Positions 6,398-32,408 of a stretch of 32,408 nucleotides of DNA are shown piece after piece; position 1 is the stretch's first letter; each line of letters opens with the position of its first letter. The translations under genes and the position numbers were made by a program. Source of the stretch: a virus. Location: positions 1 to 32,408 of IMG/VR virus record IMGVR_UViG_3300042484_001102, one strand, 5' to 3'. The notes below the pieces were generated by a model, which did no database searches, was not told the DNA's origin, and saw only the letters and a program-made list of their open reading frames with translations.

Positions 6398-6894
6398 GAG
6401 GCTGATTCTCCAAATTCCGCTTCATATATTGTACCACTTACAATGATTTGAATTTCTATTTGATCGTCAATATTTAAGTTAATTGCTTCAACCACAATAT
6501 TCCCAAGTGAGTCCATGTATACGGGATTATTGTCTGATGAGTTTGTTAGTCTTGGAATCTTGTCTTCTAGTTTTATGGCAAACCCAGAAAAGTATAAGTT
6601 TGATGTTTTTTGAAGGCCAACTATATTGTTTGGATTGTATTGTTGATTAATTAAAGAAAGATTTTTGATAGGCTGATAAGATATATTTTGACCATTAATA
6701 GTATCAAATCTTGCTATATTGATTAGTTCGTGACTACCTATATCTTCAAATATTAAATCTGTCATTACTTCAATTGGAACAGATGCATCGTCAAAAAGAA
6801 TAATGTCTGGCGTTGCTACTTTAATTTTTTGACTTGGAGTTATTGGCGGTGTATAGCTTGGTACATTTGGTGTTGCTGAAACTTGTTCTGACAT
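6394..6894 (-). CDS. Minor tail protein, unknown family
   Basis: 166 aa from the ATG at 6894, which is preceded by GAGGTG 5 nt upstream; the longer reading from 6906 (GTG) would put this ribosome site inside the gene. After a proline-rich, disordered N-terminus (VPSYTPPITPSQ) the protein is beta-rich, with no repeats, membrane segments or catalytic motifs. It starts 1 nt after the hub gene stop and overlaps the next gene by 4 nt. The tail assignment rests on its position between the hub and fibre genes. Confidence 0.5.
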   Translation of the reverse strand: MSEQVSATPNVPSYTPPITPSQKIKVATPDIILFDDASVPIEVMTDLIFEDIGSHELINIARFDTINGQNISYQPIKNLSLINQQYNPNNIVGLQKTSNLYFSGFAIKLEDKIPRLTNSSDNNPVYMDSLGNIVVEAINLNIDDQIEIQIIVSGTIYEAEFGESAS

Positions 6895-6895
6895 T

Positions 6896-11191: not shown

Positions 11192-11192
11192 A

Positions 11193-11846: not shown

Positions 11847-14800
11847 TAGTACCTTTGACTCCTAATTCTTTGATTATCAATATTTTTGATTTGTGTTATT
11901 ACTGCCCTTGCAATTTCATCTGTGCTTGCATTGGAGTTTGAAACATTAACATTGATACCATAATTATACACTGAGCTAGAGGTATTTCCAGGTGAATCTG
12001 ATTTATTGTTAAATGTTCCATTATTAATATCACGTAGATTGTCTACACCAAAATTATCAACAGCAAACTTCTTTACTACAAATTCTCCAGGGGTCAACAT
12101 TGCTGGGATTGTATCTGTTCCACGTGCAAAACCACCTGCTGCCATATACTTAGGAATTAATCCACCCATAGATCTTTTTACTGGTGTTTTTGCTGCATAT
12201 TGTGCTGCTGCTTGTGCTGCGTATCTCATTCCACTAACTTGTGCAGCAGTTAAAGGAGTAGGAGCAGGCGCTAGTTTTTTCACTTCATTATTAGCATTAA
12301 TTTTTTTCTGAATTTTTGCTGTTAGTTCTTTGAGGTTTGCTTCTCTTGCTTTAAGATCTTCAGATATTGGTGTTGGTGTGTCTGCAGTTGCTCCACCAAC
12401 AACACTTGATGTACTTCCCGCTGCTCTTGCTTTTGCTACCTCATATAGTGCAATTGCAAGTTTTTCTGCACTACCTGTTTCAGCAAGCAACTGGGTATTA
12501 AGTTCTATTCCTGCATCTTCTGCTAATTTTATTAAATCATCAAATTTTTCAAGTTCTTCTCTAGTTCTAGTGACATAACCTAGTGCTTCTTTATCTTTTT
12601 TAATTTTTCCTTCTGTTACAACAATTAAAGCTTCAGTTTTTCTTATGCTTTCTTCAATTACTATTTTTTGATTTTTTAAAGTTAACAGTGTTCCATTTTC
12701 AATTACACTAATTTGATATTGTAAATCTTTATTTTTTTGTTCAAGAGCATTTCTTCCCAGCGCACCAAGGGCTGAGTCACGGCCTGCAGTTAATGCATTT
12801 CTTTCTCCAGATATAGCAGATTCTGCTTGTTGTGCTCTTGCTTCTTGTACCGCAAATGCTGCAGCAGAGATGTCACCACGAGTAAGAGCATCTGCAATAG
12901 ACATTCTTTGTTTTTGAATATTGTTTATTTCTTGATTAATTGAAGCAATCTTATCTAAAGCAGCTATTTGTGTATCATATTTTTTATTTATTACATCTTC
13001 TTGTCGTGCTACTGACTCAAGAGCAAAATTATTAGCAGCGATTTGTGCCTGTAGTGGATCAATTTGTTCTCTATTCTTTTTATCAATTTCATCATTTATA
13101 TTTTTAAGTTTTTCCTGTTGAACACTTAGCTCATCATTATCTTTTTTTAGCTCTGCAGAATATTTTATTTCTACTAATTTGTCACGAAGATTTAATAATG
13201 CTAACTCATTAGATACAGAGTCTTTAAACTTTTCTTCTGGTGACATGTTTGCTTTGGCTGCTGCTGTTGATCCTTTTAGTGCTTTAGTATATGCTTTAAC
13301 GTCTTCAGTTAGTTGTTTTAATTTTTTACCTTTGCCATTAGCAATAACTAGTGCTGCAATTTCTGCATCATTAGATAATTCGGTTGCAGTTGTATTATCA
13401 ATATTTGCATTACGTAAAATTTTATATGCTTTAGTTTGTTGTACAATTACAGCAGTTTTAGCTGCAAGAGCATTTAGTTTTCCTTTTTCAGAATCGCCAC
13501 CTTTAATTTTTCCATTAGCATCTTCTGTATTATTGGCCTCTTCTTCAACTTTAATAAACTCTGCATATATTCTTTTGAGTCTAATCATTGCTGCTTCTCT
13601 TATAGAAAAATCATCAGATCCCAAATCTTTAAAAATGTTGCTGTCTGGTGAAACAATTCCACCACTAATTAATGTTAATCCCATCATTAAGTCTTTTGCT
13701 GATTTTAAATTTGTAATAAATTTTGTTGCATCAACACCCATTGATTTAAATATTTCAATTAGCGCAGCTTCTCTTGCTTTTTTCTCAAGAGTGGTTAGTG
13801 GTGCTACAATTGCATACATTGTTTCTTCAAATTTTGTTGCATCAATTAAGTTATTTGTAAACATTCCAGCAGCACTATCTGATACAGAAATTATTGTATT
13901 TTGAAGATCTTTTAGTGCTTTTTCTTCTTCTTTTCTAGATCTTGCAGTTTGAATTTGGGTCCCACCAGTTAAGGGTGTTGTATCAATAATTAATGGTTTA
14001 TTTACTTCTTTATTTACTTTATCAAAAAGTGTTTGAATATCTTTTTTAAGTTGATCAATAGAGGTTGGGTCAAGGGTTAAAGATTTAACTTCTAGTTTAA
14101 CATCTGTTTTTTTAGCTTCTTCACGTAAAGAATCAACCAATATTTGTATTTGTGCATCAGCAAATCCTTTTGCTTTAAGGTCAAGGGCAAGAGACTTAAG
14201 CAGTATTATTGCTTGGCTAGCAGTAGAATTAGATAATGTTTTAATTGTTGACTCATAGTCTTTTTTAAAGTTAGAGTCTTGTTTAAATGCTTCTCTTTCT
14301 GTTCTTGTTTTTGTATCTACAGCTTCTAATCCCTGAAGTTGTCTTGGAAGTTTTAATGGTACAACACCAAAAAAATCACCAAGCATTTTTGTTTGTTCTG
14401 TTGTTGATCTTAGTGCGTTAGAAAAACCATCCATGTACTCAATTTCTTTTTTTCTTTTATCGTTATATATCATAAACAATGCTCCAGCAGCTGCAAGTGC
14501 GATGGCTGTTGGTCCTAAAGCAAATTTAAATTTCATAATCTGACTTACAATTTTTTGTCCAGTTAACAACTGTATGATAGATGATAAACCAAATATTAAT
14601 CCAGAAAATTGCATTATTTTTTGAGAAATACTACCTAAAGCACCACCAGCCATTGATCCAGCTCCAGCTAAAGATGTTAATGCAAACGTTCCAGCCATAA
14701 AAGCAGAATTCATGGAATTAATTCTTTGTTGTGAAGTTTTTCTTGCTGCTACTTCAGCATTTATTGATTGTGTGGTTTTTGTTGAAATTATAGCTGCGGG

Positions 14801-17800
14801 TCCCACTTGAGACATCTTCATTTGATTTCTACGAATAGACTTTTGTACTGGGTCTATTGGACCACTTCCATATAAAGATGATCTTGATGCTTGGGCAATA
14901 TTTGATCCCGTTGCAGATCCTCCAATTTGTTGTCCTATTGCTTTTGCATCATCAACATATTCTTGTGCTCCAGCAATAAATCCACGTCCAATGTCAGCCC
15001 CAACTTTTTTAGTTTCTTTTGATGGTGAAGAAATCTTTGCCTCTGCCACTACGCCTTGTTCAATTTGCTTTTTTGTTATTTTTAATATTCTTGTAGCAGC
15101 ATCTTTAACATAAGGAGAAACTTCTTTTATTAACTCGTCAGTTGTAGTAACTATTGATTGACCCAAGTGAGCCATTGTTGCTTTTTCAAATTGACCTGAA
15201 GAAGGATTTAATGTTTGAAAAGATTTTTTAGTCTTTCCTTTGCTGTCAACTCTAGTAGTACTTGTAAACATTTCTGGGTTAAGTGCAGATGCAAGTGCTT
15301 GTGCATTTTTGCTTTCATTTCTATAAGACATTGGAGAGGTTGATCTTGATTGACCACCTGCTGCGGTGCCACCACCACCTACTGGACCAAAAGTTCTAAT
15401 TTGATTTATAGAGTTTTCAAGTGCAACATCAATTTCTTTACCAGCTACGGTAATTCCTTTTGCAGCCTCACGAAGAGCTGGAACAACTATTTGTTCAATA
15501 TCAATATCTTTTACAAATTCAATACCAGACTCATTTAGTGCTCTTACGGTGGTTTGTGCAAACAAATCTCCAACTCTTTCAAGTTCTTGCATTACTGATG
15601 GATCTTTTACTTTTTCTCCAATTTGTCTTGCAATAACTGCAAGAAGTGGTGCTTGTCCTGCTGCTCCTGCTTGTCCAACATACCTTGTATAGTCTGAAGT
15701 TGGAACTCCTCTACCAGAAGTTTGACCCATTGAGGTGTTAATTGATTCTGGCATGTAGGTAGTTGCATTTCTGTATCCCTTAACTAATCCACCTTCATTA
15801 AAGCCAATTCTTTTTTTATTTAACTGCATTAACAGTGGTAAGAATTCTTCTGTTACATCTTTTGTAACAACAAACTCACCAGGAGTAAGCATGGCTGGAA
15901 CTGTATCTCCATTTCCAGTTCCTGGAACTACTCCTCCAGCTGCAAACTTTTTAGGAGATGAAACACCAGGGGCTCTCATCATTCCTGGATTTATTGCTGC
16001 AAACTTTGCACCTGCATTTGCTGCTTGTTGATATGCAGCAATTAATTTTGCTATTGCAGTAGACTCTGCTGTAAATGTTTGTGTAAGTCTTGCATGTGAT
16101 TGATCTAAAGAGTGTGCTGCAGCTGCTGCATCAATTTGTTCCATTGTTAAATAATCAGTTTGTTCACCAAGTATTTGTGATTGTCCAGTTAGTCTTAAGT
16201 ATCCATTGCGTAAAACCATTACACCTTTTATAATGTTTGCAAAAGCATTTGCAAGCAAACCAAATGTCATTAAGGCAATTGGGCCTATAGCACCTACTGC
16301 CACTGTTAATATTACTAATGCTCTTTTGACTCCAGAAGAAAGGTTATTGAATTTTTCAAGTATCCCGCCAATAAATTCTACAATTGGTGTAACAGCTTCT
16401 AAGAATGTTTGTCCAACTGGAACAAGTGCAAGCTTTAAATCTTCAACAGACTTACGGAATTTATTCATTGCAGAGTCTGCAGTTAATCCTAATTCTTTTT
16501 CTGATAAAGCAGAAAGATCTTCAATGGATGATCCTGCTAACTCAAGAACACGTGCTGCCTGTCCAGTTTCATTTGTTACGTTATCAAATAATGTTGACAA
16601 ACGTGCAAACTGGAACTTACCAAATAATTGTTCAATTGCTCTTGCACGTGTAAGTGGATCTAATGTATCTAGTGCTTGTGCAAATTCAATAACTGTTCCT
16701 TTAAGATTTCCTTGATTTGATTCAACAATTTGACTCATATTGATTCCAACACTTTGGAGCATTGCTGCTGCCTTTGTGCTTGGATTAATTAAAGATGCAA
16801 GACCAGACTTTAATGCGTTAGCGCCTTCTGATGCATTAATTCCACCTTCTTTCATTGCTGCCATAAAGAAAGCTAAATCTTTTACGTCACCACCAAGTTG
16901 TTGAATAACTGGTGCAACTTTTGGAATTGCTGTTGTAATATCATCTAAAGATACAACTGTTTGGTTTTCTACTGCGTTAAGAAAGTCAATTGATGATGCA
17001 AGGTTTTCAGAAGACATCTTAAATGCATTTTGCAATGAAATTGTTGTTTCAAGTGCTTTGTTTGCATCAATTTGTCCAAGGACAGAAAGTCTTGTTGCTT
17101 CAGTTGTCTGACGCTGTAAGTCAACTCCCTGGAAACCTGCTGCTGCAGCTTCTGCTGCAAGTCCAACTGTTTGTGAAACTGCAACACCATATTTAGTAAA
17201 CATTTGACCAAGTGCTGTAATGCTATCAAGTGCTTGGTTTGTTTCTTCTGTTGGAGTAAATAAATCTCCATAGACTTTTCTAAACTTAATTGTTTGAGCT
17301 TCCATTTCCATGAAAGTTCTTGATGCAACCATTCCAAGGCTAGCAAGTGGAAGAGTAAAACCAACCATAAGCTGTCGCCCAGCCCACTGTGTATTTTTAC
17401 CAAAGTTTAAAAGGTTTGTAGATCCTTGCTTAACTAGTTGATTAAATATTGCTTGTTTCTGTGCTGCTAATTGAGTTTGAGTAGAAAAATTATTCATATC
17501 AAGCTGGTTAGGCATTACTGCAATTGCTTTCATTGCTCCGCTTGAATCACGGCCTAGCTTAATGTATTGTGTTTGTAATTTTTTTACACGATCTTCAGCA
17601 ACTTTACCAATTGTGTCAAACTCAGACTTAAATAGTCTTCCAAATGTTTTTGTAGATGCTCCAGAATATCTAAAATACTCTCGCATAGAGAATTTATTTT
17701 TCTCAAGGGAGTTTGTAAAGGATTCTGATGTTGTTTTAACTGTGCGGAGTTCTGCAGAGAATGCACCTGTAGCATTAACGCTATTGATGAAGTTCTTCTG

Positions 17801-17947
17801 CAGATCTCTCTGCGCCAGTCCAGCAGCTTCGCTGCTTTTAGCGATAGATGTATGAAACTGAGATATCTGACGTTGTAAAGCCTTTAGTTGGGCTAACGCT
17901 TCAGACGTATCAATATTAACGCCAATATTAGCATTAACGTCAGCCAT
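11846..17947 (-). CDS. Tape measure protein (TP901-type)
   Basis: 2033 aa, by far the longest gene. It templates tail length and is delivered through the tail. Residues roughly 190-480 match the phage minor-tail/TP901 core: METRAEIAN-type helices are replaced here by FMEMEAQTIKFRKVYGD, then AVSQTVGLAAEAAAAGFQG and GGINASEGANALKSGL, ending with the LFGKFQFARLSTLF signature. Hydrophobic segments lie near 545-580, 1085-1120 and 1140-1165. Long helical and coiled-coil stretches fill 1550-1900. A GDTVPAMLTPGEFVV-type motif occurs twice (about 676-692 and 1940-1955). Start is ATG with GAGGTG upstream. At about 0.15 nm per residue the tail would be near 300 nm. Confidence 0.92.
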   Translation of the reverse strand: MADVNANIGVNIDTSEALAQLKALQRQISQFHTSIAKSSEAAGLAQRDLQKNFINSVNATGAFSAELRTVKTTSESFTNSLEKNKFSMREYFRYSGASTKTFGRLFKSEFDTIGKVAEDRVKKLQTQYIKLGRDSSGAMKAIAVMPNQLDMNNFSTQTQLAAQKQAIFNQLVKQGSTNLLNFGKNTQWAGRQLMVGFTLPLASLGMVASRTFMEMEAQTIKFRKVYGDLFTPTEETNQALDSITALGQMFTKYGVAVSQTVGLAAEAAAAGFQGVDLQRQTTEATRLSVLGQIDANKALETTISLQNAFKMSSENLASSIDFLNAVENQTVVSLDDITTAIPKVAPVIQQLGGDVKDLAFFMAAMKEGGINASEGANALKSGLASLINPSTKAAAMLQSVGINMSQIVESNQGNLKGTVIEFAQALDTLDPLTRARAIEQLFGKFQFARLSTLFDNVTNETGQAARVLELAGSSIEDLSALSEKELGLTADSAMNKFRKSVEDLKLALVPVGQTFLEAVTPIVEFIGGILEKFNNLSSGVKRALVILTVAVGAIGPIALMTFGLLANAFANIIKGVMVLRNGYLRLTGQSQILGEQTDYLTMEQIDAAAAAHSLDQSHARLTQTFTAESTAIAKLIAAYQQAANAGAKFAAINPGMMRAPGVSSPKKFAAGGVVPGTGNGDTVPAMLTPGEFVVTKDVTEEFLPLLMQLNKKRIGFNEGGLVKGYRNATTYMPESINTSMGQTSGRGVPTSDYTRYVGQAGAAGQAPLLAVIARQIGEKVKDPSVMQELERVGDLFAQTTVRALNESGIEFVKDIDIEQIVVPALREAAKGITVAGKEIDVALENSINQIRTFGPVGGGGTAAGGQSRSTSPMSYRNESKNAQALASALNPEMFTSTTRVDSKGKTKKSFQTLNPSSGQFEKATMAHLGQSIVTTTDELIKEVSPYVKDAATRILKITKKQIEQGVVAEAKISSPSKETKKVGADIGRGFIAGAQEYVDDAKAIGQQIGGSATGSNIAQASRSSLYGSGPIDPVQKSIRRNQMKMSQVGPAAIISTKTTQSINAEVAARKTSQQRINSMNSAFMAGTFALTSLAGAGSMAGGALGSISQKIMQFSGLIFGLSSIIQLLTGQKIVSQIMKFKFALGPTAIALAAAGALFMIYNDKRKKEIEYMDGFSNALRSTTEQTKMLGDFFGVVPLKLPRQLQGLEAVDTKTRTEREAFKQDSNFKKDYESTIKTLSNSTASQAIILLKSLALDLKAKGFADAQIQILVDSLREEAKKTDVKLEVKSLTLDPTSIDQLKKDIQTLFDKVNKEVNKPLIIDTTPLTGGTQIQTARSRKEEEKALKDLQNTIISVSDSAAGMFTNNLIDATKFEETMYAIVAPLTTLEKKAREAALIEIFKSMGVDATKFITNLKSAKDLMMGLTLISGGIVSPDSNIFKDLGSDDFSIREAAMIRLKRIYAEFIKVEEEANNTEDANGKIKGGDSEKGKLNALAAKTAVIVQQTKAYKILRNANIDNTTATELSNDAEIAALVIANGKGKKLKQLTEDVKAYTKALKGSTAAAKANMSPEEKFKDSVSNELALLNLRDKLVEIKYSAELKKDNDELSVQQEKLKNINDEIDKKNREQIDPLQAQIAANNFALESVARQEDVINKKYDTQIAALDKIASINQEINNIQKQRMSIADALTRGDISAAAFAVQEARAQQAESAISGERNALTAGRDSALGALGRNALEQKNKDLQYQISVIENGTLLTLKNQKIVIEESIRKTEALIVVTEGKIKKDKEALGYVTRTREELEKFDDLIKLAEDAGIELNTQLLAETGSAEKLAIALYEVAKARAAGSTSSVVGGATADTPTPISEDLKAREANLKELTAKIQKKINANNEVKKLAPAPTPLTAAQVSGMRYAAQAAAQYAAKTPVKRSMGGLIPKYMAAGGFARGTDTIPAMLTPGEFVVKKFAVDNFGVDNLRDINNGTFNNKSDSPGNTSSSVYNYGINVNVSNSNASTDEIARAVITQIKNIDNQRIRSQRY

Positions 17948-17988
17948 CTAGTTTACACCTCGCTTTTTAGTTTTTGTTGTTAATTGTT

Positions 17989-18288
17989 TTATTCACCAGC
18001 AAGTGTTGAACCTGATGCTGCTTCTACAATTTTGTAGACAGTTGGTAAGTCTAGAACTTCTTCTAGCTTGTCAATGTCATCTGCAAGTTCTGGTTTGTAC
18101 TGTTTCATTGCAATTTGAACACACTCAACAAGAAGAGTCATTGACTTTTCATTGTCATCCGCCACCGCTGCAACACCCTCAAACTTTGCCATAAATGGAC
18201 GAAGAAGAGAGATTTTTAAAGGACGGACAGATATTTCTGTACCATCCATAAGTGTGAGTTTTTGAGCCTCATACACTGTCGTTGCCAT
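17989..18288 (-). CDS. Tail assembly chaperone, short form (gpG-like)
   Basis: 99 aa. It is clearly paralogous to the N-terminal ~95 residues of the 234-aa protein encoded just before it: both start MAT-x-x-Y, share DGTEI, PLKI, LR-x-FM, a CV-x-I-x-MKQY-x-P block and DLPT-x-YKI. It lacks the C-terminal T domain. It lies directly before the tape measure, the expected place of the chaperone that keeps the tape measure soluble during tail assembly. It has its own candidate promoter and an AGGAGGT ribosome site 3-4 nt before the ATG. No frameshift signal leads on from it; its stop is followed by a second in-frame stop. Confidence 0.75.
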   Translation of the reverse strand: MATTVYEAQKLTLMDGTEISVRPLKISLLRPFMAKFEGVAAVADDNEKSMTLLVECVQIAMKQYKPELADDIDKLEEVLDLPTVYKIVEAASGSTLAGE

Positions 18289-18313
18289 ACTACCTCCTAA
18301 TTAGGTTATGTTA

Positions 18314-18322
18314 ATTATAGCA
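18314..18322 (-). promoter_or_regulatory. Extended -10 promoter before the short tail chaperone
   Basis: TGCTATAAT read on the minus strand: a perfect -10 hexamer with a TGN extension, in the 42-nt gap between the two tail chaperone genes. Transcription would begin about 20 nt before the AGGAGGT site and ATG of the 99-aa gene. A TTGACA at 18334-18329 is only 9 nt from the hexamer, too close to act as its -35. Confidence 0.6.
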
Positions 18323-18330
18323 CGAAAGTG

Positions 18331-19035
18331 TCAATTTTTTAGGAGTGTTGGATCTACCAAATTTTCGTAATCAAGTCCCATGTTAATGCCAAACCCTGCC
18401 TTTTGAGCATTTTGTCCTTGAAGAGATAATACATCATTACTATCAGATGTTGCTCCTTGGCTAAAAACTCTAGCTTTCATGTCTTCCCATTCTTTTTGTC
18501 CTTTGTCAGAACCTGAAGCTCCTTCTAGGTCTACACCTTGAATTGCTGCAAGAAACTTTTTTTCTTCGTAGTCTAGCTCTCTTTTACTAGATAATGTTAT
18601 CATTAACTCTGGCATAGATAAAGATTCTTCTAGTTCCTTATAGTCTTTCCAAATACCCAAAATAAATACTTCTGCCTCTAATTTTGCAAGGTCTAAGTCT
18701 TGCCATGTCATGCCACTTGAAGTTGCTTGATCCTTGACTGTTTCTTCTGATTTTTTATTTATTTTTATACCTGCTGCCACATCAATAATTTTATATATTG
18801 TTGGTAGGTCTATGTTGTCTTCAAATGAGTCTATTATTGATGGATAGTATTGTTTCATGCATATACCCACACATTTTGACAAAATATCAATTGCGCCATC
18901 ATCATCTGATACGTTTTCAATTTGATTAAAAACAATCATAAAATCTCTTAGGTATTTAATTTTTAATGGAGTTATTTCTATCTCTGTTCCATCAATTAAA
19001 TAAACATTTTCTCTGTGATATATTTGTGTGGCCAT
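18331..19035 (-). CDS. Tail assembly chaperone, long form (gpGT-like, fused in frame)
   Basis: 234 aa. The N-terminal ~90 residues are the same domain as the 99-aa chaperone encoded next. The C-terminal part (WQDLDLAKLEAEVFILGIW ... MITLSSKRELDYEEKKFLAA) resembles the T domain that in most long-tailed phages is added by a programmed -1 frameshift. Here both parts are in one uninterrupted frame. The gene stands between the major tail protein and tape measure, as expected. No Shine-Dalgarno precedes the ATG; instead a TGATAGAAT element ends 7 nt before it, so the transcript may be leaderless. Function: binding the tape measure and recruiting tube subunits. Confidence 0.75.
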   Translation of the reverse strand: MATQIYHRENVYLIDGTEIEITPLKIKYLRDFMIVFNQIENVSDDDGAIDILSKCVGICMKQYYPSIIDSFEDNIDLPTIYKIIDVAAGIKINKKSEETVKDQATSSGMTWQDLDLAKLEAEVFILGIWKDYKELEESLSMPELMITLSSKRELDYEEKKFLAAIQGVDLEGASGSDKGQKEWEDMKARVFSQGATSDSNDVLSLQGQNAQKAGFGINMGLDYENLVDPTLLKN

Positions 19036-23164: not shown

Positions 23165-23202
23165 AAAAGAAAATAAGGAGGGTAGTTTTTACGCTACCCT
23201 CC
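23165..23202 (-). terminator. Intrinsic terminator after the major capsid protein gene
   Basis: On the minus strand GGAGGGTAG pairs perfectly with CTACCCTCC across an 8-nt loop (CGTAAAAA), followed by TTATTTTCTTTT. It lies about 20 nt behind the capsid stop and before the 81-aa gene. A strong rho-independent terminator candidate. Confidence 0.88.
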
Positions 23203-23221
23203 CTATAAAGTATTTCAATGA

Positions 23222-24343
23222 TTATGAGTTATTTGCTGCTGTTGCGAATGCAACTGCATCAAGCTCTTCCCATTGTAGACCAAAGCGGACGAATACTGTG
23301 TACTCAATTGTGTCCTTCTTTGGTTGGTAGAAACGGTTTACAGTGATGTCTCTCTGGAATCCCCATACACGGTTCTGAGGGAATGTAAGATCTACATAAC
23401 CTGCAGGGTAGTAAGGAACTTCCTGAACTTCAACACCAAGAACACGTGTTGTACGTGCTCCACCGAATGTCTGTGCTGCACCATCTAGATAGCTCTGACG
23501 GTTAGCAGGTGTACCTGCTGCAATTGGAGAAAATGCCTCTGCGATTGCATCAGCAAGTGTACCGTTGTTCTTAACGATACCCTGGAATGCATCTGTACCT
23601 GCATAGAACTTTAGATTGTTCTTGATTGCACGGTACTTGCGTGGCATTGCAAGGATAATATCCTGTAGAACAGGAGTTGTCCATTCATTGTTTGCAACGG
23701 TTACGAATGATTCGTGTGCGTCTGATCCTGAAGTTACCTTGTTTACGAAACCATCCATGATTGAAAGGAATGGAGCAGTTGAACCGTCACCGTTGATCGC
23801 AAGATCTTCAATGTCGTTTGCAAATGCTGTTGTCATTAAACGAACAAGGTGGTCTTCAAGAGCTCCACCTTCTAGGTTATCTTCAAGTGATTCTGTTGAT
23901 ACTTCCCAATCAAGACGAATCTTTTTTGTAGTAAGTTCAACCTTTGAGAATGTTGCTCCTGCATTGGTAAATGTAGGGTTTGCTTGTGCTGCTGCACGAA
24001 TTACACGCTCACCAACGTTAACTTTTTCAAGTTCCATTGTGTTAGCTCGCATTGTAACTCTACGTCCATCTTTAGCGAGAACTGTAGCATCCCACACATA
24101 ATCAATGAAGCGACGGGCTTGCTCAGGTAGCAAGATACCTCCAGGCGTACCTGTTGGATTTACAGCGTTAGGACCATCTAGTACTCCTAAATTTGCTGTA
24201 GCAATATTGCCCATGGTTCCTGTGCGGCCTGCAACTGGAATTCCAGCGTCTGCTGAGCTTCCTGAAGCAAATGCACCATCACCGCTATGAGCGTGGGCTA
24301 CTGTTGGAGAGCCTGGATAGTTCTTTACGATATCTTCTGACAT
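23222..24343 (-). CDS. Major capsid protein (HK97 fold)
   Basis: 373 aa from the ATG at 24343; AGGAGG at 24357-24352 lies 8 nt upstream, so the in-frame GTG overlapping this site (24352) is not the start. After a glycine-rich extension (about 1-72) the HK97-type N-arm and core follow: QARRFIDYVWDATVL, then the E-loop region and LDWEVSTESLEDNLEG, which resembles the spine-helix start with AFANDIEDLAINGDG. The extension recurs as a separate 81-aa protein. No delta domain is seen; scaffolding appears to be supplied by the protease C-terminus. The gene is less AT-rich than its neighbours and ends at a terminator, fitting high expression. Confidence 0.88.
   Translation of the reverse strand: MSEDIVKNYPGSPTVAHAHSGDGAFASGSSADAGIPVAGRTGTMGNIATANLGVLDGPNAVNPTGTPGGILLPEQARRFIDYVWDATVLAKDGRRVTMRANTMELEKVNVGERVIRAAAQANPTFTNAGATFSKVELTTKKIRLDWEVSTESLEDNLEGGALEDHLVRLMTTAFANDIEDLAINGDGSTAPFLSIMDGFVNKVTSGSDAHESFVTVANNEWTTPVLQDIILAMPRKYRAIKNNLKFYAGTDAFQGIVKNNGTLADAIAEAFSPIAAGTPANRQSYLDGAAQTFGGARTTRVLGVEVQEVPYYPAGYVDLTFPQNRVWGFQRDITVNRFYQPKKDTIEYTVFVRFGLQWEELDAVAFATAANNS
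24118..24319 (-). repeat. Capsid N-terminal extension, duplicated as a separate gene
   Basis: Capsid residues about 9-75 (YPGSP ... GPNAVNPTGTPGGILLP) are the partner of the 81-aa protein at 23154-22909. Similarity stops where the conserved HK97 N-arm (RFIDYVWDA) begins, so the duplicated unit is the extension alone. Confidence 0.7.
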
Positions 24344-24351
24344 ATTGTTCA

Positions 24352-24357
24352 CCTCCT
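24352..24357 (-). promoter_or_regulatory. Ribosome binding site that fixes the capsid start
   Basis: AGGAGG on the minus strand, 8 nt before the ATG at 24343. Because its last base is part of an in-frame GTG, the longer reading (MNNMSED) would start within its own ribosome site and is rejected. Confidence 0.8.
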
Positions 24358-24369
24358 AGTGATTTTATG

Positions 24370-24921
24370 TTAGTTGTATAGGTCGGAGAATTTGAGGAAA
24401 CGTCCGCCCCATAGGGATTTGTGAGCCATTACTGGCTCCTGCACGATCTCGCCTAGATCGCCAGACTTGCGGAAAGCGGTATCTAGCTCTACTAGATCTA
24501 CTCGCTTGCCAATTTCATTGAAAGTTCCCTTGATCTGATCTACATCAGTTGTTGTGGCTTCAAGAGATTTCTTTATATTTGCAACTTCATCACTTAGTGA
24601 TTTTAGTGTTGCTGCTAGATCGCCAAAGGCATTATTAACAGAATCTTTAATTTCTGTAATTGCATTAACAACTACGTCATCCGCTTTAGCTGCAGTTTTT
24701 TCTTCTTTGTCGTCTTCTTTTGTTAAAGCAGAAGGCATCATTTCTTCGTCTTCTTCTTCTTCATCTGTTGACTTCTTAGGAGCGTCTGCTTTTTCTGCTT
24801 CTGCTTCTGCTGCAATAGGTGCCTCAATAGTGGCATCTGCCTTTGGAGTGACCTCTGATACTACTTCTGGAGTTACTTCTGCTTCTTCAGCCTTTGCAAC
24901 TACTTCTGTATTTTCTGTCAT
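24370..24921 (-). CDS. Scaffolding protein, nested in frame in the protease gene
   Basis: 183 aa, beginning at an internal ATG (MTENTEVVAKAEEAEV) and sharing the stop of the protease gene. The start is preceded by a complete AAGGAGGT, 7 nt upstream, the best ribosome site in the window. The product has the look of a scaffold: an acidic, alanine-rich, disordered first half (including EEEEDEEMM), a coiled coil (LKSLSDEVANIKKSLEATTT) and a conserved C-terminal tail (WGGRFLKFSDLYN) that could bind capsid. The arrangement resembles lambda C/Nu3, where scaffold is translated from inside the protease gene. The separate product is inferred from the start signal, not proven. Confidence 0.65.
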   Translation of the reverse strand: MTENTEVVAKAEEAEVTPEVVSEVTPKADATIEAPIAAEAEAEKADAPKKSTDEEEEDEEMMPSALTKEDDKEEKTAAKADDVVVNAITEIKDSVNNAFGDLAATLKSLSDEVANIKKSLEATTTDVDQIKGTFNEIGKRVDLVELDTAFRKSGDLGEIVQEPVMAHKSLWGGRFLKFSDLYN

Positions 24922-25680
24922 AGGACTTACCTCCTTGTTAATCTTAGAAGACTCTATGCCTTTAGCACTATCAACTAAGAATTTTATCATGTCTATTTTA
25001 TCTTTATCTGATTTTTCTACAAAACCAATATTTTTCATTTCTTCTCCAGATACTGGACTAACTTGTGTATCTTCTTCGGAAGTTAAAACAATTCCATTAT
25101 CTTTATCGTAGAATACATTTTCAATAATTGTATCCATTCCGTCACCTTTAATTACATCAATGCCATCAACTTTTTCAACTGAAACAATGCTGGCAAACTG
25201 ATTTGCTGGTGAATCTACTAAAGATAGTTCTACTAAATCATATTGTTTAATAACTCTAATTGTTTTGTCAAGTTCTTCATTATATGCATCATCCCACTTA
25301 TTCATTCTTCCGCCAATAGAAAAACCAGTGTATGTACCATCAAGAACTTTTTCCCATGCATTCTGTGCACCCTTTGAAATGTATGTAGAAACGTAAACTC
25401 CTTTATAGAATTTTTTTGTTTCTGGATCAAAGTATTTTTCTTCTTTAAAATTAATCATTTTACCAACGGCTGAAGGCTGATGCATTTCACGAATATTTCC
25501 ACGGAATCTAGAGAAAGCTTCCATAGATGCTTCTGTTGTAACAATATCATCTTGCTTATCAATGTTGTCTAGTGATGCAAAACCTGATACTATTCTGCGT
25601 TCTTGGTCTACTTTTCCAAAGGGCATAGATAGGCGAAGATTGTCGCCGTCAGTTGTCCAAAATGCCTTATTTGTATTCAT
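24370..25680 (-). CDS. Prohead protease (XkdF/HK97 gp4-like) fused to scaffold
   Basis: 436 aa from the ATG at 25680. The protease domain is residues ~1-175: VSGFASLDNIDKQDDIV, then catalytic His67 in NIREMHQPS, Ser121 in YTGFSIGG, and the VELSLVDSPAN motif at about 150-160. These match phage prohead serine proteases of the XkdF/HK97 gp4 type, which cleave scaffold and mature the capsid. Residues ~250-436 are the scaffold region described separately. An ATG 24 nt upstream (25704) is also in frame, but a TGGTATAAT promoter lies between the two, and neither has a convincing Shine-Dalgarno; the shorter, nearly leaderless form is preferred. Confidence 0.85.
   Translation of the reverse strand: MNTNKAFWTTDGDNLRLSMPFGKVDQERRIVSGFASLDNIDKQDDIVTTEASMEAFSRFRGNIREMHQPSAVGKMINFKEEKYFDPETKKFYKGVYVSTYISKGAQNAWEKVLDGTYTGFSIGGRMNKWDDAYNEELDKTIRVIKQYDLVELSLVDSPANQFASIVSVEKVDGIDVIKGDGMDTIIENVFYDKDNGIVLTSEEDTQVSPVSGEEMKNIGFVEKSDKDKIDMIKFLVDSAKGIESSKINKEVSPMTENTEVVAKAEEAEVTPEVVSEVTPKADATIEAPIAAEAEAEKADAPKKSTDEEEEDEEMMPSALTKEDDKEEKTAAKADDVVVNAITEIKDSVNNAFGDLAATLKSLSDEVANIKKSLEATTTDVDQIKGTFNEIGKRVDLVELDTAFRKSGDLGEIVQEPVMAHKSLWGGRFLKFSDLYN
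24929..24936 (-). promoter_or_regulatory. Internal ribosome binding site for the nested scaffold
   Basis: AAGGAGGT on the minus strand, fully complementary to the 16S rRNA 3' tail core, 7 nt before an in-frame ATG. It codes for part of the protease-scaffold linker (NKEVSP) and no other internal site of this strength was found in the long genes. Confidence 0.7.
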
Positions 25681-25690
25681 TGTGTATTCT

Positions 25691-25699
25691 ATTATACCA
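25691..25699 (-). promoter_or_regulatory. Extended -10 promoter before the protease-scaffold-capsid unit
   Basis: TGGTATAAT on the minus strand in the 105-nt gap behind the halogenase gene. It ends 10 nt before the ATG at 25680, which would leave a leader of about 3 nt or none. A TTGAGA 19 nt upstream is a weak -35 candidate. Confidence 0.65.
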
Positions 25700-25784
25700 A
25701 ACATTTATAGGGTTTTCTCAAGTATTGAGATAGTGCCAAGTTAGACCTGGTTTCTATATAAAGCCAAGCAACTTTTATGCTGTA

Positions 25785-27155
25785 CTAAACTATAATACCA
25801 TACAGTTCAAGCTCTTTTTTTGCAGTATCTTTTGTTATATTGTTTGTACCAGCTAAAACCCAGTTCCACAGAGGTGCCCCTGCACTACCATAGTAATAGT
25901 CATAGTTGAAAAATCCAGGTACCTTGTGTTTTGACCTTTCCAGAATTTCCCTAGAAAAAGGTGTAAGGGTTTTACCAGAGGAAATATGTTTCCAGAACTC
26001 TGAATCTGTTCTACCACCTTGATAGTGTATTACTAAAAAATCACGTATATCATCATATAGTTTTTGCATACGAGAGTTATATCTTTTTTGACCTACTGGG
26101 TCGTATGTTTTTTCCCAGGTATCTGACATAAACTCAAAACAAAATGTAACAAGTTGAACTATGGTTGTATGTATTGAGGTTGCTTCTAGTGGTTCTGCAA
26201 AAGATGAAGCAAGTCCTAAAGCAAGACAATTTTTTTCCCAAAGAACATCGCATCTTCCAGACTCAAACTTTATTACTTTTATTGGATCAATTTCATGACC
26301 CAGCAATAACTCAACTTCTTTTTGAGCATTTTCTACAGATATATATTTATCAGAAAAAACATAACCACATCCAATACGACTTGCTGTTGGAATTTGCCAC
26401 ATCCATCCAGCTGACAGTGCGTGAGCTACGGTTAGTGGCTCTAGATCATCTTTTGGCCTTGGCAAAATAAATGGTATTGCAGTATTGACTGGAAGATTTT
26501 CTGAGTAAGAATTCCACTTAACACCTAAAGATTTCATTAGTATACGTGAAAATCCTGTACAGTCAATAAAAAAATCTCCAAAAATTTCTTCATTATTTTC
26601 TAATATTAAACTTTTTATTGATCCATCTTCTTTTAGTGTTACTTTATTAATAATTCCATCTATGTGGCTAATTTTGTTTTCTAAAATTTTTTTAAAATGT
26701 TTTCCTATAAGAGTTCCATCAAAATGAAGTGCTGTGACTTCTGTATATTTTTTATCTATAAAGCATTTTCCTAGTTTAGAGGATTCATGCATTCCTTCAG
26801 AACCTTTTTGATAGAAGGCAGTTAAAAAATCAACATCTGGACTAAACTTATGGGTTTCGGTTCCATCTAAAGGTGCATAATAAGAACTTCCATCTCCTGT
26901 CCAATTTTTATGTCTAATTCCTAGTTTTAATGTTGCATCAGTATTTGCTATAAAGTCAGAAATGTTACTTCCAGTATCAAAAAACTTATTGTTAAGTACA
27001 CGTGTTAGTAATCTAGTAGAGCCTTCTCCAGATCCTATAATTCCTAACTGAGTAGACTCAATTAAAGTTACTCTATGTTTGTTTGGTTGAGAGTTAGCAA
27101 AAAAAAGTGCTGCAAGCCATCCAGCAGTTCCACCACCAGCAATTACTATGTTCAT
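25785..27155 (-). CDS. Flavin-dependent tryptophan-halogenase family enzyme
   Basis: 456 aa, intact. FADH2-dependent halogenases make a hypohalous species that is passed to an active-site lysine and then to an aromatic substrate. Visible: FAD-binding GGGTAGW (7-13); GSGEGS (41-46); Lys77 in TLKLGI, matching PrnA K79; the family signature GWMWQIP (250-256); GLASSFAEPLEATSIH (314-329), in which E324 matches the catalytic glutamate; and the C-terminal HYQGGRTDSEFW. Ser327 replaces the Gly of the usual EST-G motif, a change also seen in other members. It starts 13 nt after the portal stop with GAGGTAA as ribosome site, so it is transcribed with the portal. No flavin reductase is in the window. 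Substrate and halide are unknown. Confidence 0.9.
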   Translation of the reverse strand: MNIVIAGGGTAGWLAALFFANSQPNKHRVTLIESTQLGIIGSGEGSTRLLTRVLNNKFFDTGSNISDFIANTDATLKLGIRHKNWTGDGSSYYAPLDGTETHKFSPDVDFLTAFYQKGSEGMHESSKLGKCFIDKKYTEVTALHFDGTLIGKHFKKILENKISHIDGIINKVTLKEDGSIKSLILENNEEIFGDFFIDCTGFSRILMKSLGVKWNSYSENLPVNTAIPFILPRPKDDLEPLTVAHALSAGWMWQIPTASRIGCGYVFSDKYISVENAQKEVELLLGHEIDPIKVIKFESGRCDVLWEKNCLALGLASSFAEPLEATSIHTTIVQLVTFCFEFMSDTWEKTYDPVGQKRYNSRMQKLYDDIRDFLVIHYQGGRTDSEFWKHISSGKTLTPFSREILERSKHKVPGFFNYDYYYGSAGAPLWNWVLAGTNNITKDTAKKELELYGIIV

Positions 27156-27168
27156 ATAGTTACCTCAA

Positions 27169-28812
27169 CTACTGAGATGATCTACCTTCGCCTTTTGGAT
27201 TTCTTCCAGATACTGTTGTAGTACTATCTGATGCGTTATTTGTTCTTTCTGCGTCCCTAGATCTATTTCCATTTGCCCTTGAATCTGCAGCCTGCCTTGG
27301 ACTTAATTCAAGAGGAGAGTCTCCATGTTTTGCTTGTGGAAGATCAAGAATTTCTCTTGCTTCATTTGGAAGCATTATCTGATTTTTTACATAACGCTCA
27401 AGAATTTGAGACTGAGCAATTTCATCAGTAAGCGTAAGCTCATTAAACCTAAACTCTAAAATATCTGTTTTTTCTTTAATTACTTTGTTAATTATTTTTT
27501 CAAGATCTTGTTGTGCTGGACGTGAAACTTGTTCTTTAAATGTGCGATCTTGAGCTAATGAGCTAGCTGTTGCTCCAGTTTCTGATCCACCAAGTTTAGA
27601 GATTGGAACCTGATGAGCAATTAAAATATCATCTCTGTTTTGTTTACGATACTCTTTAAATGATCCATCTTGAATTCCATTTTCAATTGGGTCCATCTTA
27701 AACTCAACCTTGCTATTTTCAGTATCTCCAGGAAGTGGTATGTATAGAGTTCTGTGTGATTGTGCTTTAAGTCCCGTTTGTAAAAAGCGAAACATTTTAT
27801 CTTCTGCATCTGAAGACAACTTTGCACCCTTTAATGTAATAACATATCTAGGAACAGCTTTATTTTCAAAATAATCAATATTGTATTGTGAAGCAAGTTG
27901 ATCACCAATAAGCGAAGGAAATGCTGCAACAATATCTGGTACACCATAGTATGTATTTAGTGGAGAGTAATCCTTAAAATGAATAATTTCGTTTGGACGT
28001 TTATCTTCTGTAAGAGGATTAGAATTTGTTGCTGAAAAATTTTTAAAGTAAACAACTTTTGGTCCAATAATTTGAACAAATCCATCACGGAGTCTACGAA
28101 CACGCATTGTTATTGAAGGAATATGTCCAACATATCCAATTTCCCCAGTAACCGTTCTTCCAATTTCTAGGTATCCATTGCCAGTAGACTGTATGTCTGT
28201 AAATACTTTTTCCATCGTTCTAGTAAAGCTATCATCATCATTAAGGGATTCAAGCCAATCACGCAACTCAAGTTTTGCACGTTCAATTCTTTTACGGGCA
28301 CGGCCTACTGCATCTGTATTATCATTACTTTCAAGACTTAAACTTGTTCTATCTGTTACATCAAAACGATATCCAAGACCAACAACATTTTCTACTTTTG
28401 CATCAATAGCAGCATGATTAGCAAAAGATGTGTCATAAAAGTTAGCAAGTTCATATAAATTATATGGTGGAGTAATTACATCAAAAAGACCATAACCATT
28501 TCTGTAGACTAAGCCTGGATTAATAGCTTTTGATCCAGTATCATTAATTCCTTTAGGGTCTGCATTAGCAGAATCTAAATATGATGTTGAAAGTAAATCA
28601 ATGTTTGCATTTGTAGCAAGATATCCGCTAGCATTTGATGCTTTGTTTACTTGTCTGGTTACACGACGCTTAAAGTTTTCCTGTATTCCAACCAAGCCTT
28701 TAAGTTCATCCCAAGATTTGTTAAAAGGATCGCTTGCTTTAAATGGGTTTTCTTCTTTTTGATTTGTGTCTAATCTTGCTTGAATATAATCATTGTCATA
28801 GTCATTACTCAT
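27169..28812 (-). CDS. Portal protein (HK97/PBSX type)
   Basis: 547 aa from the ATG at 28812, which has AAGGA 8 nt upstream; an ATG 9 nt further up (28821) is too near that site. Typical portal features: helical N-terminal clip-proximal region, GNGYLEIGRTVTGEIGYVGH, then NEIIHFKDYSPLNTYYGVPD with the LIGDQLASQYNIDYFENKAV helix and VPRYVITLKG. These are standard for phage portal family proteins. HQVPISKLGGSETGATASS is the conserved segment before the crown. The C-terminus is disordered and polar. It forms the dodecameric ring for DNA entry. It overlaps the upstream gene by a few bases. Confidence 0.88.
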   Translation of the reverse strand: MSNDYDNDYIQARLDTNQKEENPFKASDPFNKSWDELKGLVGIQENFKRRVTRQVNKASNASGYLATNANIDLLSTSYLDSANADPKGINDTGSKAINPGLVYRNGYGLFDVITPPYNLYELANFYDTSFANHAAIDAKVENVVGLGYRFDVTDRTSLSLESNDNTDAVGRARKRIERAKLELRDWLESLNDDDSFTRTMEKVFTDIQSTGNGYLEIGRTVTGEIGYVGHIPSITMRVRRLRDGFVQIIGPKVVYFKNFSATNSNPLTEDKRPNEIIHFKDYSPLNTYYGVPDIVAAFPSLIGDQLASQYNIDYFENKAVPRYVITLKGAKLSSDAEDKMFRFLQTGLKAQSHRTLYIPLPGDTENSKVEFKMDPIENGIQDGSFKEYRKQNRDDILIAHQVPISKLGGSETGATASSLAQDRTFKEQVSRPAQQDLEKIINKVIKEKTDILEFRFNELTLTDEIAQSQILERYVKNQIMLPNEAREILDLPQAKHGDSPLELSPRQAADSRANGNRSRDAERTNNASDSTTTVSGRNPKGEGRSSQ

Positions 28813-29200
28813 CAAATGCATCCTTGCCTGACTTATTTAATGTTTGCTGAGCAGCATGCCAAGCACCTAAATCATTCATTGATGGTATAAGTCCAGATTT
28901 CATTCTGTCCAATTGCACTGAATGCTCTTCATCATCAATTCTTGTTAATCCAGGAACAAAAACTGCTTCTCCGTCACCTTCATCGCCATAATATTTTGCT
29001 GCTTGTTTAAGTTCTGCTATTTTTGCTAAATCATTACGCATAGACTCTATATTTAATACGTTACCTTCTCCGTCTGTAAACCATTTTCCTGTTGATTTTT
29101 TATATACGTAAAGTCCCCAATTGTATTTTTTTTCAATTACCTGCCTACGTACATTCTTTACAAGAGGTTCGCCAGTTTCTGGGTTAATTAAAGAATTCAT
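28805..29200 (-). CDS. 131-aa protein of unknown function before the portal
   Basis: Not recognised. N-terminal half basic with aromatic residues (NWGLYVYKKSTGKWFTDGEG, about 27-46), central helix (MRNDLAKIAELKQAAKYYG) and an acidic C-terminal half ending KSGKDAFDE. No Cys pairs, membrane segment or signal. It has an extended -10 element exactly 7 nt before its ATG and no Shine-Dalgarno, so the transcript may be leaderless. It overlaps the portal gene start, which suggests a role in head assembly or simply coupling. Confidence 0.6.
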   Translation of the reverse strand: MNSLINPETGEPLVKNVRRQVIEKKYNWGLYVYKKSTGKWFTDGEGNVLNIESMRNDLAKIAELKQAAKYYGDEGDGEAVFVPGLTRIDDEEHSVQLDRMKSGLIPSMNDLGAWHAAQQTLNKSGKDAFDE

Positions 29201-29218: not shown

Positions 29219-32200
29219 TTACACAGGTGTTTTGACTTGAATCTGCCAAGATGTGTCTTTATATACCTTTATGCTAACAGAGTCAAGCAACATTCCCTGA
29301 CTATCATCAACAATAATCTTATTGGTTCCAATATAAGTTTTGTATATTTCAACAGGATTTGACCCATAAAGATCTACAGTAGACAAGACTAATACACCAT
29401 TCCAGGTATAGCTATCTAACCAGTACTGCCAATCTAAATCATTAGATATATCATTTTTTACTCTTGTCCATGGACGATTTATAGACTTTTGAATTTTTTG
29501 GATTCCTGTAGACTGATAGTAGGAAACATTATTAAATAAAGCTGAACCAGTTAAATTAATTGATCCAAGATATGAGTTAAAGTTAAGTGATTCTGGGAAA
29601 GAAACCGAAAGGACTCCCCATTCATTTTTTGTTATTCTTGGTTCTCTTACTAAGTTACCATTCCAATAATATGAAATTCCCTGATATTCTTGATTTGTTA
29701 ATTGACTTCTTGCAACAACTTTTCCACGTGTTCCGTTAACATTGTCTGATAAAACATAAAACTTTATTGTGTCACCCTTGTAATCTATATCAAATAAAGT
29801 TTCTTCTTCTACTGAAAAGAATAAACTATCATATCTCATCCATAACTGTATTGCGTTTACTTTATAGTCTAACGCAAGAGAACTATTTATTGGAACAGAT
29901 ATACCACGACTTGTTTGTAAATTAGTTTCACCACTTACTTTAATTCCAGAGTCCCTAGTTAAATAAAGATATGGTGTGCTTCCTTTATAAATGTTGAATG
30001 GATTTTTTGATTTATAGTCATAATAGACTCCAGATTGTTTAAATGGAAAAATATTTTGTCCAAATCTAGTTCCAATTGGATTAAATGAGTTATCGTTTAG
30101 CGCTTGTGATGCAATTTCTAAATTTTTAATAGATATTGGATTTTTATTAATTGATGTAGCGTTAAGTTCAATATGGTAAACAATTGCAAGATCATTAAAA
30201 TTAACTTTTTTGCTTGGGTAAATTATTGTGTTGTTAATTACCTCAAATTTTGTAGTTTCCCAGTTTTCAAAAGAATCAATATCAATAACTAAACTATTTT
30301 CTATTGGTTGAATTGTTGTAAAGAAAGATTCTAGATTATTTGCTCCATCTTGAATATATTGAAAACTTATATATGTTTTTATTGTTGAGTTTGATGTGTC
30401 ATATCTATAATTTTCAACTGATCTACTGTTTAACTCTGCATAGTCTTCCCAATTAGTCAATAGAAAATTATCAAGTTGATCATAAGATTTTTGTATTGGA
30501 AAAAGATATTCATTTTTTAGTGTAGAATAATTCCAACTAGATACTTGTTCATAGACTGAAACAGTTGATGGTGCTGGAATGTCAATATTAAATTGTAAAA
30601 AATCTAAATCATAGTAACTTTTTCCTTTAGAATTTGTAACATATTTTGCAAAATAAGATAATGGCATGTAGTCTTCCCAGTATCCATAAGAGTTAATGTC
30701 AAGAAAATAGTTATTGTATTTTTCAAATGGAACTAGTGTGTAGCTTGCAGTATGATTAATCATTTCATCTACTGAAGCATTAAGGATTATTCCGCTTTGA
30801 TCAAAATTATCTTTAATTAAATTTGTATTAAATTTACTAGATATTCCAAAACTATAAATATTTCCAGTAAATGAGTTTTCTGGGTTGGTATCTCCTGCAA
30901 TATATATTTCTAGTCCATTTTTATTTCCAAAAAATGTTGCAACGTTTCCACCAAAATAACTAACTAATTTTTCAATATTTATTCCAGCAATATACTTGTC
31001 TCCAGATACTAAACCAGAAAATACTGTGCTTGGGCTTCCACCCTCTAAAACCTCTTCCCATGATGCTGTATTATAAAATCCAGCGTCTATAACTGTTCCA
31101 TTATCGTCATAAAAACTTTGATATATAAAATCATCATAGATTATTTGTTCTTCTCCATTATAATAGAGAGAGTAATTTATGTGATCCCCTTCTTTTATAA
31201 CAGAAAAATAATTTTTAGTTATTGAGTTATATATTGTAAATAATGTTTCTACAGATGTCATATTTGTTGAACTAAAAATACCATATATAGCAATAGGATC
31301 ACTATTTATAATATTGAAATTATTAAAATTAAAGTAAGAATGAACATTGTTCCAAGAATTATTAGGTCTAAATGTTATAAAGTTATTTGCTTCATCCTGT
31401 ATTTCTTTGTTATCAGAATAAAGATTTTCTATTGTTTTTTCTTGTATAGATATATTTGGCAAAGAATATTGTGGAGTAGACAATGATTGAGGGCTTGTTG
31501 TTAAATTATCAAAACTTCCTTGTTCCCATTTTGCAAAATTTGGATATGAATAGTTTGCTGTGTATCCAGAAAATGGGTAATCAATAAAAGTTGAAACTCC
31601 ACCATATGAAGAATCAATAGATTCTGGAGATATAACAGCTTGTCCATAAACCCATCTTCTTTTTGCTACTGTAATTGGAACTTGGTATGGGTATATAGAA
31701 ATACAGTCAATTTCAAAAGGATTTATGTCTGCATAAGAGTAAAATCCTAGCCAATCTTGATCTTTGCCTTCTTCGTCTAATTCATCTGGAAAAGTTAAAT
31801 CATCAATATTAAAATTAAATGATAAGACTTGTTCTCCATTTATTAAAAGGGATGCAGTATTTCCTATAAAACGAATGTGAATAAGCATTGGTCTATACCA
31901 TTCACCAACAAAGTGTGATGCAAAATTATTTCCAATTGAAAGAGTTAGAAATCCACCGTTTATATATAATCCATCAGTTGATGATATTGGACCAAATATT
32001 CTTTTGTCTAAAGATGAGTCTGAGTTAATTCTTGCCCAAAATTCTACAGTGTAATTATTATATTTTCCTTTATTGTTAAGAAATCCTTTTCCTGGAACAA
32101 TTAAAGATGCTCCAGAGCTTACATTTAGTTTTGTAAGATTTGATGCTCCAAAAACTAATGGTAAGCTTGTATTTCTTGCTAAAAGTCCAAGAGCTGAAAG

Positions 32201-32408
32201 ATAGTATCCTGGAGTATCTTGAATTCCATAATTAAAAGATTCTACCCCTTGCATTCCACCATACAAAGATATTGAAGAAGGTAGTTGAATTGTTTGTACT
32301 CCAAGAGAAGAAGTATTAAATTCTTCAGACCATTGTCCAGCAGTAACACCATTTATATGAAAAATATAGTCATCAGTAGTTGATCCACCGTCTAATGTAT
32401 TAATTTTT
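29219..32408 (-). CDS. Large LamG/concanavalin-like virion protein, 5' end beyond the window
   Basis: At least 1062 codons: the frame is open from the right edge (the 47 codons before 32266 contain no stop), so the true start is outside. There appear to be three LamG-like beta sandwiches. The first is near VEFWARINSDSS and LLINGEQVLSFNF; the second is around SVIKEGDHINYSLYYNGEEQ and FTGNIYSFGIS; the third is around NAIQLWMRYDSLFF and SYYWNGNLV. Such domains bind glycans. The position before the portal, rather than among the tail fibres, is unusual. It may be a head-decorating adhesin, a fibre or a minor structural protein. No peptidase or hydrolase motif was found by eye. Confidence 0.65.
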   Translation of the reverse strand, partial: KINTLDGGSTTDDYIFHINGVTAGQWSEEFNTSSLGVQTIQLPSSISLYGGMQGVESFNYGIQDTPGYYLSALGLLARNTSLPLVFGASNLTKLNVSSGASLIVPGKGFLNNKGKYNNYTVEFWARINSDSSLDKRIFGPISSTDGLYINGGFLTLSIGNNFASHFVGEWYRPMLIHIRFIGNTASLLINGEQVLSFNFNIDDLTFPDELDEEGKDQDWLGFYSYADINPFEIDCISIYPYQVPITVAKRRWVYGQAVISPESIDSSYGGVSTFIDYPFSGYTANYSYPNFAKWEQGSFDNLTTSPQSLSTPQYSLPNISIQEKTIENLYSDNKEIQDEANNFITFRPNNSWNNVHSYFNFNNFNIINSDPIAIYGIFSSTNMTSVETLFTIYNSITKNYFSVIKEGDHINYSLYYNGEEQIIYDDFIYQSFYDDNGTVIDAGFYNTASWEEVLEGGSPSTVFSGLVSGDKYIAGINIEKLVSYFGGNVATFFGNKNGLEIYIAGDTNPENSFTGNIYSFGISSKFNTNLIKDNFDQSGIILNASVDEMINHTASYTLVPFEKYNNYFLDINSYGYWEDYMPLSYFAKYVTNSKGKSYYDLDFLQFNIDIPAPSTVSVYEQVSSWNYSTLKNEYLFPIQKSYDQLDNFLLTNWEDYAELNSRSVENYRYDTSNSTIKTYISFQYIQDGANNLESFFTTIQPIENSLVIDIDSFENWETTKFEVINNTIIYPSKKVNFNDLAIVYHIELNATSINKNPISIKNLEIASQALNDNSFNPIGTRFGQNIFPFKQSGVYYDYKSKNPFNIYKGSTPYLYLTRDSGIKVSGETNLQTSRGISVPINSSLALDYKVNAIQLWMRYDSLFFSVEEETLFDIDYKGDTIKFYVLSDNVNGTRGKVVARSQLTNQEYQGISYYWNGNLVREPRITKNEWGVLSVSFPESLNFNSYLGSINLTGSALFNNVSYYQSTGIQKIQKSINRPWTRVKNDISNDLDWQYWLDSYTWNGVLVLSTVDLYGSNPVEIYKTYIGTNKIIVDDSQGMLLDSVSIKVYKDTSWQIQVKTPV

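Follow-up and report, generated by a model that had tools for sequence, protein, structure and literature searches.

A flavin-dependent halogenase gene as apparent cargo between the portal and protease genes of a viral contig

Results

The halogenase gene and its predicted product

A flavin-dependent halogenase gene was found within the head genes of IMG/VR virus record IMGVR_UViG_3300042484_001102, analysed here over its whole stretch of 32,408 nucleotides (the window). Enzymes of this family add chlorine, bromine, or iodine to aromatic rings. On balance, I favour the reading that a freshwater phage, probably of an actinobacterium, carries this gene as cargo between its portal and protease genes, and that the product acts on an aromatic substrate other than free tryptophan. 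The features on which the analysis depends are as follows.

27169..28821, minus strand: portal protein (PF04860, E 7e-31; phrog_12)
27155..27178, minus strand: ancestral portal-protease junction, left copy, ATCTCAGTAGTTGAGGTAACTATA (aligned locally to the right copy and to relatives)
27156..27168, minus strand: portal-halogenase gap of 13 nt with a ribosome-site-like GAGG stretch (sequence)
25785..27155, minus strand: flavin-dependent halogenase, 456 aa (PF04820, phrog_2928, catalytic motifs, AlphaFold, PDB matches)
25706..25731, minus strand: ancestral junction, right copy, ATCTCAATACTTGAGAAAACCCTATA (matched by alignment to the uninterrupted junctions of the related loci L063, L067, and L068)
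24370..25704, minus strand: head maturation protease-scaffold (PF14550/PF04586; phrog_9427, E 2e-109)
23222..24352, minus strand: major capsid protein (PF05065; TIGR01554)

The halogenase ORF starts with ATG and has no internal stops. A sequence-only reading had described a complete enzyme with the FAD motif, the active-site lysine, the WxWxIP signature, and the catalytic glutamate, and this description holds. The single Pfam match is PF04820 (E 3.9e-86, residues 2-407; score 290 bits, cut-off 21), and the PHROGs search led to phrog_2928 'tryptophan halogenase' (E 3e-96). The FAD motif of the GxGxxG type reads GGGTAG (residues 7-12), and K77, WMWQIP (251-256), and EPLE (321-324) are all kept. 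Across 33 viral halogenase sequences, K77, W251, P256, and E321 are invariant, while the conservation of W253, I255, and E324 is 90% or higher. In the HMMER alignment to PyrH, K77 corresponds to residue 75, E321 to residue 351, and E324 to residue 354. I take PyrH residues 75 and 354, the counterparts of K77 and E324, to be the catalytic pair. In AbeH, Lys75 and Glu352 are named (PMC11840605). Glu352 of AbeH may correspond to the leading Glu of EPLE; the phage protein keeps both glutamates, and the catalytic conclusion is unaffected.

The AlphaFold model, for which the 33 viral sequences served as input, has a pLDDT of 93.9 and a pTM of 0.92. Its best PDB matches are all flavin-dependent halogenases (PyrH, AbeH, PrnA, and Thal), and the predicted structure has the PrnA/PyrH-type fold that defines membership among the PF04820 flavin-dependent halogenases. 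The structural comparison with PrnA-type enzymes came out in favour of the assignment, and the claim of likely activity is backed by the family fold, the catalytic residues, and the purifying selection described below. The gene is intact, and its product is probably a functional flavin-dependent halogenase, judging from sequence and model. A protein of the same fold might instead hydroxylate an aromatic residue or catalyse some other flavin reaction, with no halogenation. Fresh water contains little halide compared with the sea, and the second Glu of EPLE varies in some viral relatives (EPLQ, EPLD). However, the window protein retains the halogenase-specific K77, WxWxIP, and both glutamates, and I regard this alternative as quite improbable.

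Gene order around the halogenase

The portal, halogenase, protease, and capsid genes all lie on the minus strand. The portal stop is followed after 13 nt (TTGAGGTAACTAT, which contains the GAGG) by the halogenase start, in agreement with the placement between portal and protease-scaffold genes first read from the sequence. From the halogenase end to the called protease start there are 80 nt; the N-termini of relatives suggest that the true protease start is 25680, 24 nt past the called one. A search for the same portal-halogenase-protease order, as had been proposed, found it in five other IMG/VR viral contigs, with the capsid gene following in the same way. Three of their halogenases are identical to that of the window and two are 93% identical. 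Since five other contigs repeat the order, it is not an assembly error; a chimeric assembly at the halogenase was rejected because the same junctions recur in those contigs. Named phages gave no megablast match to the head region.

A scan for consensus promoters, aimed at one belonging to the halogenase itself, returned 41 sites, against 39 in shuffled sequences. Upstream of the protease gene, a promoter-like stretch (TTGAGA-N19-TGGTATAAT, window 25680-25740) is conserved in the portal relatives and untouched by the insertion; its spacing is not one that the consensus scan covered. Directly behind the capsid gene is a strong terminator-like hairpin (23173-23206) with 13 pairs and a T-rich tail. 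Upstream of the portal gene, positions 29219-32266 encode a large protein of at least 1015 aa, LamG-like in appearance, which is kept in most portal relatives and has no Pfam or PHROG match. Just ahead of the tape-measure gene, two adjoining genes (17989-18288 and 18331-19035) encode similar N-termini (MATTVYEAQKLTLMDGTEISVRPLKI and MATQIYHRENVYLIDGTEIEITPLKI) and are perhaps duplicated tail-assembly chaperones.

Insertion into the portal-protease gap

A search with the portal protein yielded 80 loci, one of which is the window's own clade; of the remaining loci, 75 show both portal and protease. In all 75 the portal-protease gap measures 7-41 nt, and in none does a halogenase lie there. A core head gene of the phage group was rejected on this count. 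The halogenase insert is flanked by two copies of the ancestral junction, each of about 20-25 bp. The left flank (ATCTCAGTAG TTGAGGTAACT) retains the portal end and the beginning of the ancestral gap. The right flank restarts with the ancestral junction (ATCTCAATAC TTGAGAAAACCCTATAAATGTTTGGTATAAT) and continues into the protease as in the relatives; the insertion has spared a conserved TTTGGTATAAT stretch that lies upstream of the protease. Each copy matches the junction of the relatives well (scores 42-83), and the match between the left and right copies is only modestly unusual (p 0.014, block shuffles). In Streptomyces phage Belfort (L206; portal 45% identical), the same gap holds a small 'membrane protein' gene (9578-10036). 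Because Belfort carries a different gene there, the gap accepts cargo. On the compared sequences, the halogenase is lineage-specific cargo inserted in the portal-protease gap and is not head-assembly machinery. Its position is therefore a poor guide to any role in head assembly.

Is the gene maintained? Between the two lineages of 93% identity, the halogenase has a dN of 0.032, a dS of 0.246, and a dN/dS of 0.13; for the same lineages, the portal has a dN/dS of 0.04-0.05, the protease one of 0.21, and the capsid protein one of 0.10. The halogenase, like its neighbours, is held by purifying selection, and the gene is maintained, as its dN/dS indicates. The sequence-only reading had held that absence from related phages would point to a passing insertion. 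The absence was confirmed in 75/75 relatives, but two diverged lineages keep an intact gene. An insertion of no benefit to the phage would fit a gene that is confined to one small clade and is absent at this place in all other relatives tested. The low dN/dS, the intact copies in the two lineages and in five other contigs, and a halogenase of another branch elsewhere in another phage of the group, which suggests repeated uptake, argue against it, and I consider it very improbable.

Origin and host

In the maximum-likelihood tree, the window halogenase groups with the viral sequence L004, then with L008 and L007 (supports 99/94 and 99/95). It sits inside an all-virus clade of 23 rows (82/86), and the next group is alphaproteobacterial. 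The best cellular matches are also alphaproteobacterial, at about 40% identity or less. Recent capture from an actinobacterial host is unsupported, given these cellular matches and the nesting of the gene among viral ones. The GC content (0.336) and GC3 (0.177) are like those of the neighbouring genes, so that composition gives no sign of foreign origin. In the few loci of the closest alphaproteobacterial homologues that were scanned (high GC, poor ORF calling), LysE transporters were found in two and oxygenases in none.

A second, unlike halogenase of 487 aa was noticed in the same portal group (locus L144 of record G024, 8854-10317), beside RecA and DNA polymerase III genes. It belongs to another branch of the tree than the window halogenase. 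From their sequences, phages of this portal group appear to have acquired halogenases at least twice. The host of the window phage is probably a freshwater member of Actinomycetota, because the portal is akin to that of Streptomyces phage Belfort.

Features of the substrate site

Free-tryptophan halogenases have a lid with two glutamines (Gln160/Gln164 in PyrH) that binds the carboxylate (PMC11840605) and a C-terminal motif of the YYHGFETYS type (PMC8269204). In the alignment, residues 97 and 139 of the window halogenase correspond to PyrH residues 95 and 164, and the lid stretch is 27 residues shorter than in PyrH. The PyrH alignment revealed no carboxylate-binding lid in the window halogenase and no motif of the YYHGFETYS type; the protein has YYGSAGAPLWNW there, reading GSAGAPLWNW where PyrH reads GFETYSW. 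Since both the tryptophan-binding lid and the motif are missing, free tryptophan is an unlikely substrate on sequence grounds. MibH acts on a peptide. Both MibH and VirX1 are among the enzymes without the two free-tryptophan motifs (PMC8269204). By analogy, the missing motifs fit a bulky or peptide substrate, although they are no proof of one.

Oxygenases and fibre genes

A longer, near-identical contig of the same virus (G001, locus L145) extends the view beyond the window, whose reverse strand begins near G001 base 21,491. Six PF13640 2OG-Fe(II) oxygenases, two phrog_7084 proteins, and a gene resembling a short-chain dehydrogenase lie at G001 5,680-12,052. This island is situated between a gene for a collagen-like protein (1,943-2,677) and the tail-fibre genes; the fibre genes of G001 are at 1943-2677, 14411-16267, and 16897-18759. 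The halogenase is in the same genome as these oxygenase and fibre genes, at a distance of 16 kb.

Is such an association common among viral halogenases? The neighbours of 20 viral halogenases numbered 118; each of two 2OG oxygenase families was matched by 23 of them, with possible overlap between the two sets. PF13759 oxygenases are present in 26 of the 28 halogenase-bearing records examined, and an oxygenase centre lies within 2.5 kb of 33 of 54 halogenases. Fibre, adhesin, or collagen-like genes adjoin the halogenase in Syn9, S-SRM01, and DSL-LC01; no fibre-type neighbours were seen in S-RIM44, P-SSM2, and G024. Seven other records of the portal group have oxygenases without any halogenase, while G024 has a halogenase and no PF13640 oxygenases.

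The closeness of the two kinds of genes was assessed by two tests. The simpler one (PF13640 only, smallest distance, records of at least 30 kb) gave p 0.09. The second one (PF13640 and PF13759, mean log distance, circular shifts, 21 records of at least 30 kb) found halogenases closer to oxygenases than chance (p 0.007); the six named isolates alone gave p 0.08. Since the records are related, the p values of both tests are rough. In this phage, the second test placed the halogenase no closer to oxygenases than chance (p 0.89). Tight linkage was not upheld, in view of the 0.09 of the simpler test and the 0.89 of this phage. The link holds across the record set, modestly above chance, and is loose within this phage.

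Many viral contigs (L007, L013, L016-L018, L020-L030, L032, and L034) have two to six halogenase-like genes in tandem or at short distances. Interleaved with them are genes of about 200 aa that resemble oxygenases, and some halogenase copies alter WxWxIP. Among the PHROG families matched by oxygenase-like proteins are some named 'DNA endonuclease V' and 'ferrochelatase'; the names are apparently misannotations that have spread into phage records, e.g., Syn9.

Discussion

The following course of events is proposed. The phage lineage would have picked up an intact halogenase from a pool of phage halogenases and retained it in the portal-protease gap as cargo that could be read from the structural transcript. 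Its position suggests late expression. As in other members of the family, host-supplied FADH2 together with O2 and halide would give HOX, which would pass to K77 and halogenate an electron-rich aromatic ring. The substrate may more likely be a peptide or protein, modified at an aromatic residue, or perhaps a bulky aromatic metabolite. A candidate protein substrate would be a phage fibre or another virion protein, possibly shared with the 2OG-Fe(II) oxygenases of the phage. Because oxygenases occur between the fibre genes and in most halogenase-bearing phage records, modification of a virion protein is plausible from the gene content; it is about equally likely as halogenation of a small molecule. 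Among the papers searched, none on halogenation or hydroxylation of phage virions was found.

The gene may also be auxiliary to host metabolism, with no link to the virion: the enzyme would halogenate a small host aromatic (an indole, phenolic, pigment, signal, or defence compound) and alter host physiology. The usual classification of phage halogenases is as auxiliary metabolic genes (PMC3037559, PMC10452541). The halogenase sits among metabolic genes in S-RIM44 and P-SSM2, and the second halogenase of the portal group, in G024, adjoins DNA metabolism genes. Although halogenases are found repeatedly in phages of aquatic habitats, the review that describes the viral enzyme VirX1 lists no native substrate for it; in vitro, VirX1 accepts many small aromatics (PMC8407142). 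On the other hand, no biosynthetic partner gene is beside the window halogenase, virion genes surround it, and many relatives show the association with oxygenases and fibres. I hold the auxiliary role as a possible explanation, tentatively; if it is the only role, the gene still adds to the kinds of phages in which such genes are known.

A broader version of the virion-directed reading is that phages run an oxidative protein-modification kit, made of halogenases and batteries of 2OG-Fe(II) oxygenases, on their own fibre or capsid proteins, with the window halogenase supplied from the head operon. This is speculative and rather unlikely as it stands; if it were true, virions would carry halogenated and hydroxylated residues. 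The window halogenase is a small, confidently modelled member of its family under selection in a structural operon, and the relatives that lack the gene lend themselves to comparison. The association with oxygenases and fibres makes virion-protein modification directly testable in culturable relatives.

Comparison with known systems

The nearest relatives outside the clade are L007 and L008 of IMG/VR, which share 49-53% identity and the same catalytic motifs and are grouped with the window halogenase at 99/94. They differ in their length of about 500 aa and in their settings, which are tandem halogenases with 2OG oxygenases for L007 and a glycosyltransferase for L008. VirX1 of cyanophage Syn10 (PDB 6qgm) is also a viral PF04820 member, with similarity over residues 3-392, but it is 531 aa long and about 26% identical (Syn10/Syn9). 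In Syn9, the halogenase gene is preceded by genes for tail-fibre assembly and followed by 2OG oxygenases; it does not lie in a head operon as in the window phage. PyrH and PrnA share the fold (TM 0.81-0.86) and the catalytic motifs with the window halogenase at 23-30% identity, while their free-tryptophan lid and C-terminal motif are not conserved in it. Actinomycetia phage DSL-LC01 is likewise a lake phage of an actinobacterium, and its halogenase follows collagen-like genes. However, that halogenase is only 22.5% identical, has EPLD for EPLE and WVSKIP for WxWxIP, and lies beside a glycosyltransferase.

The sequence-only reading had taken placement in the head module of a long-tailed phage as unfamiliar. 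A location in a head or packaging module is not without precedent: in Pelagibacter phage HTVC008M, a halogenase gene (35% identity) separates the small terminase gene from the large one, within the genes for head and packaging. HTVC008M differs in being T4-like, and its halogenase is directly behind a gene resembling phytanoyl-CoA dioxygenase, with four more oxygenases nearby. Phage halogenases are thus already known from cyanophages (PMC3037559, PMC10452541, PMC8407142) and from pelagiphage HTVC008M, and what is new here is the setting.
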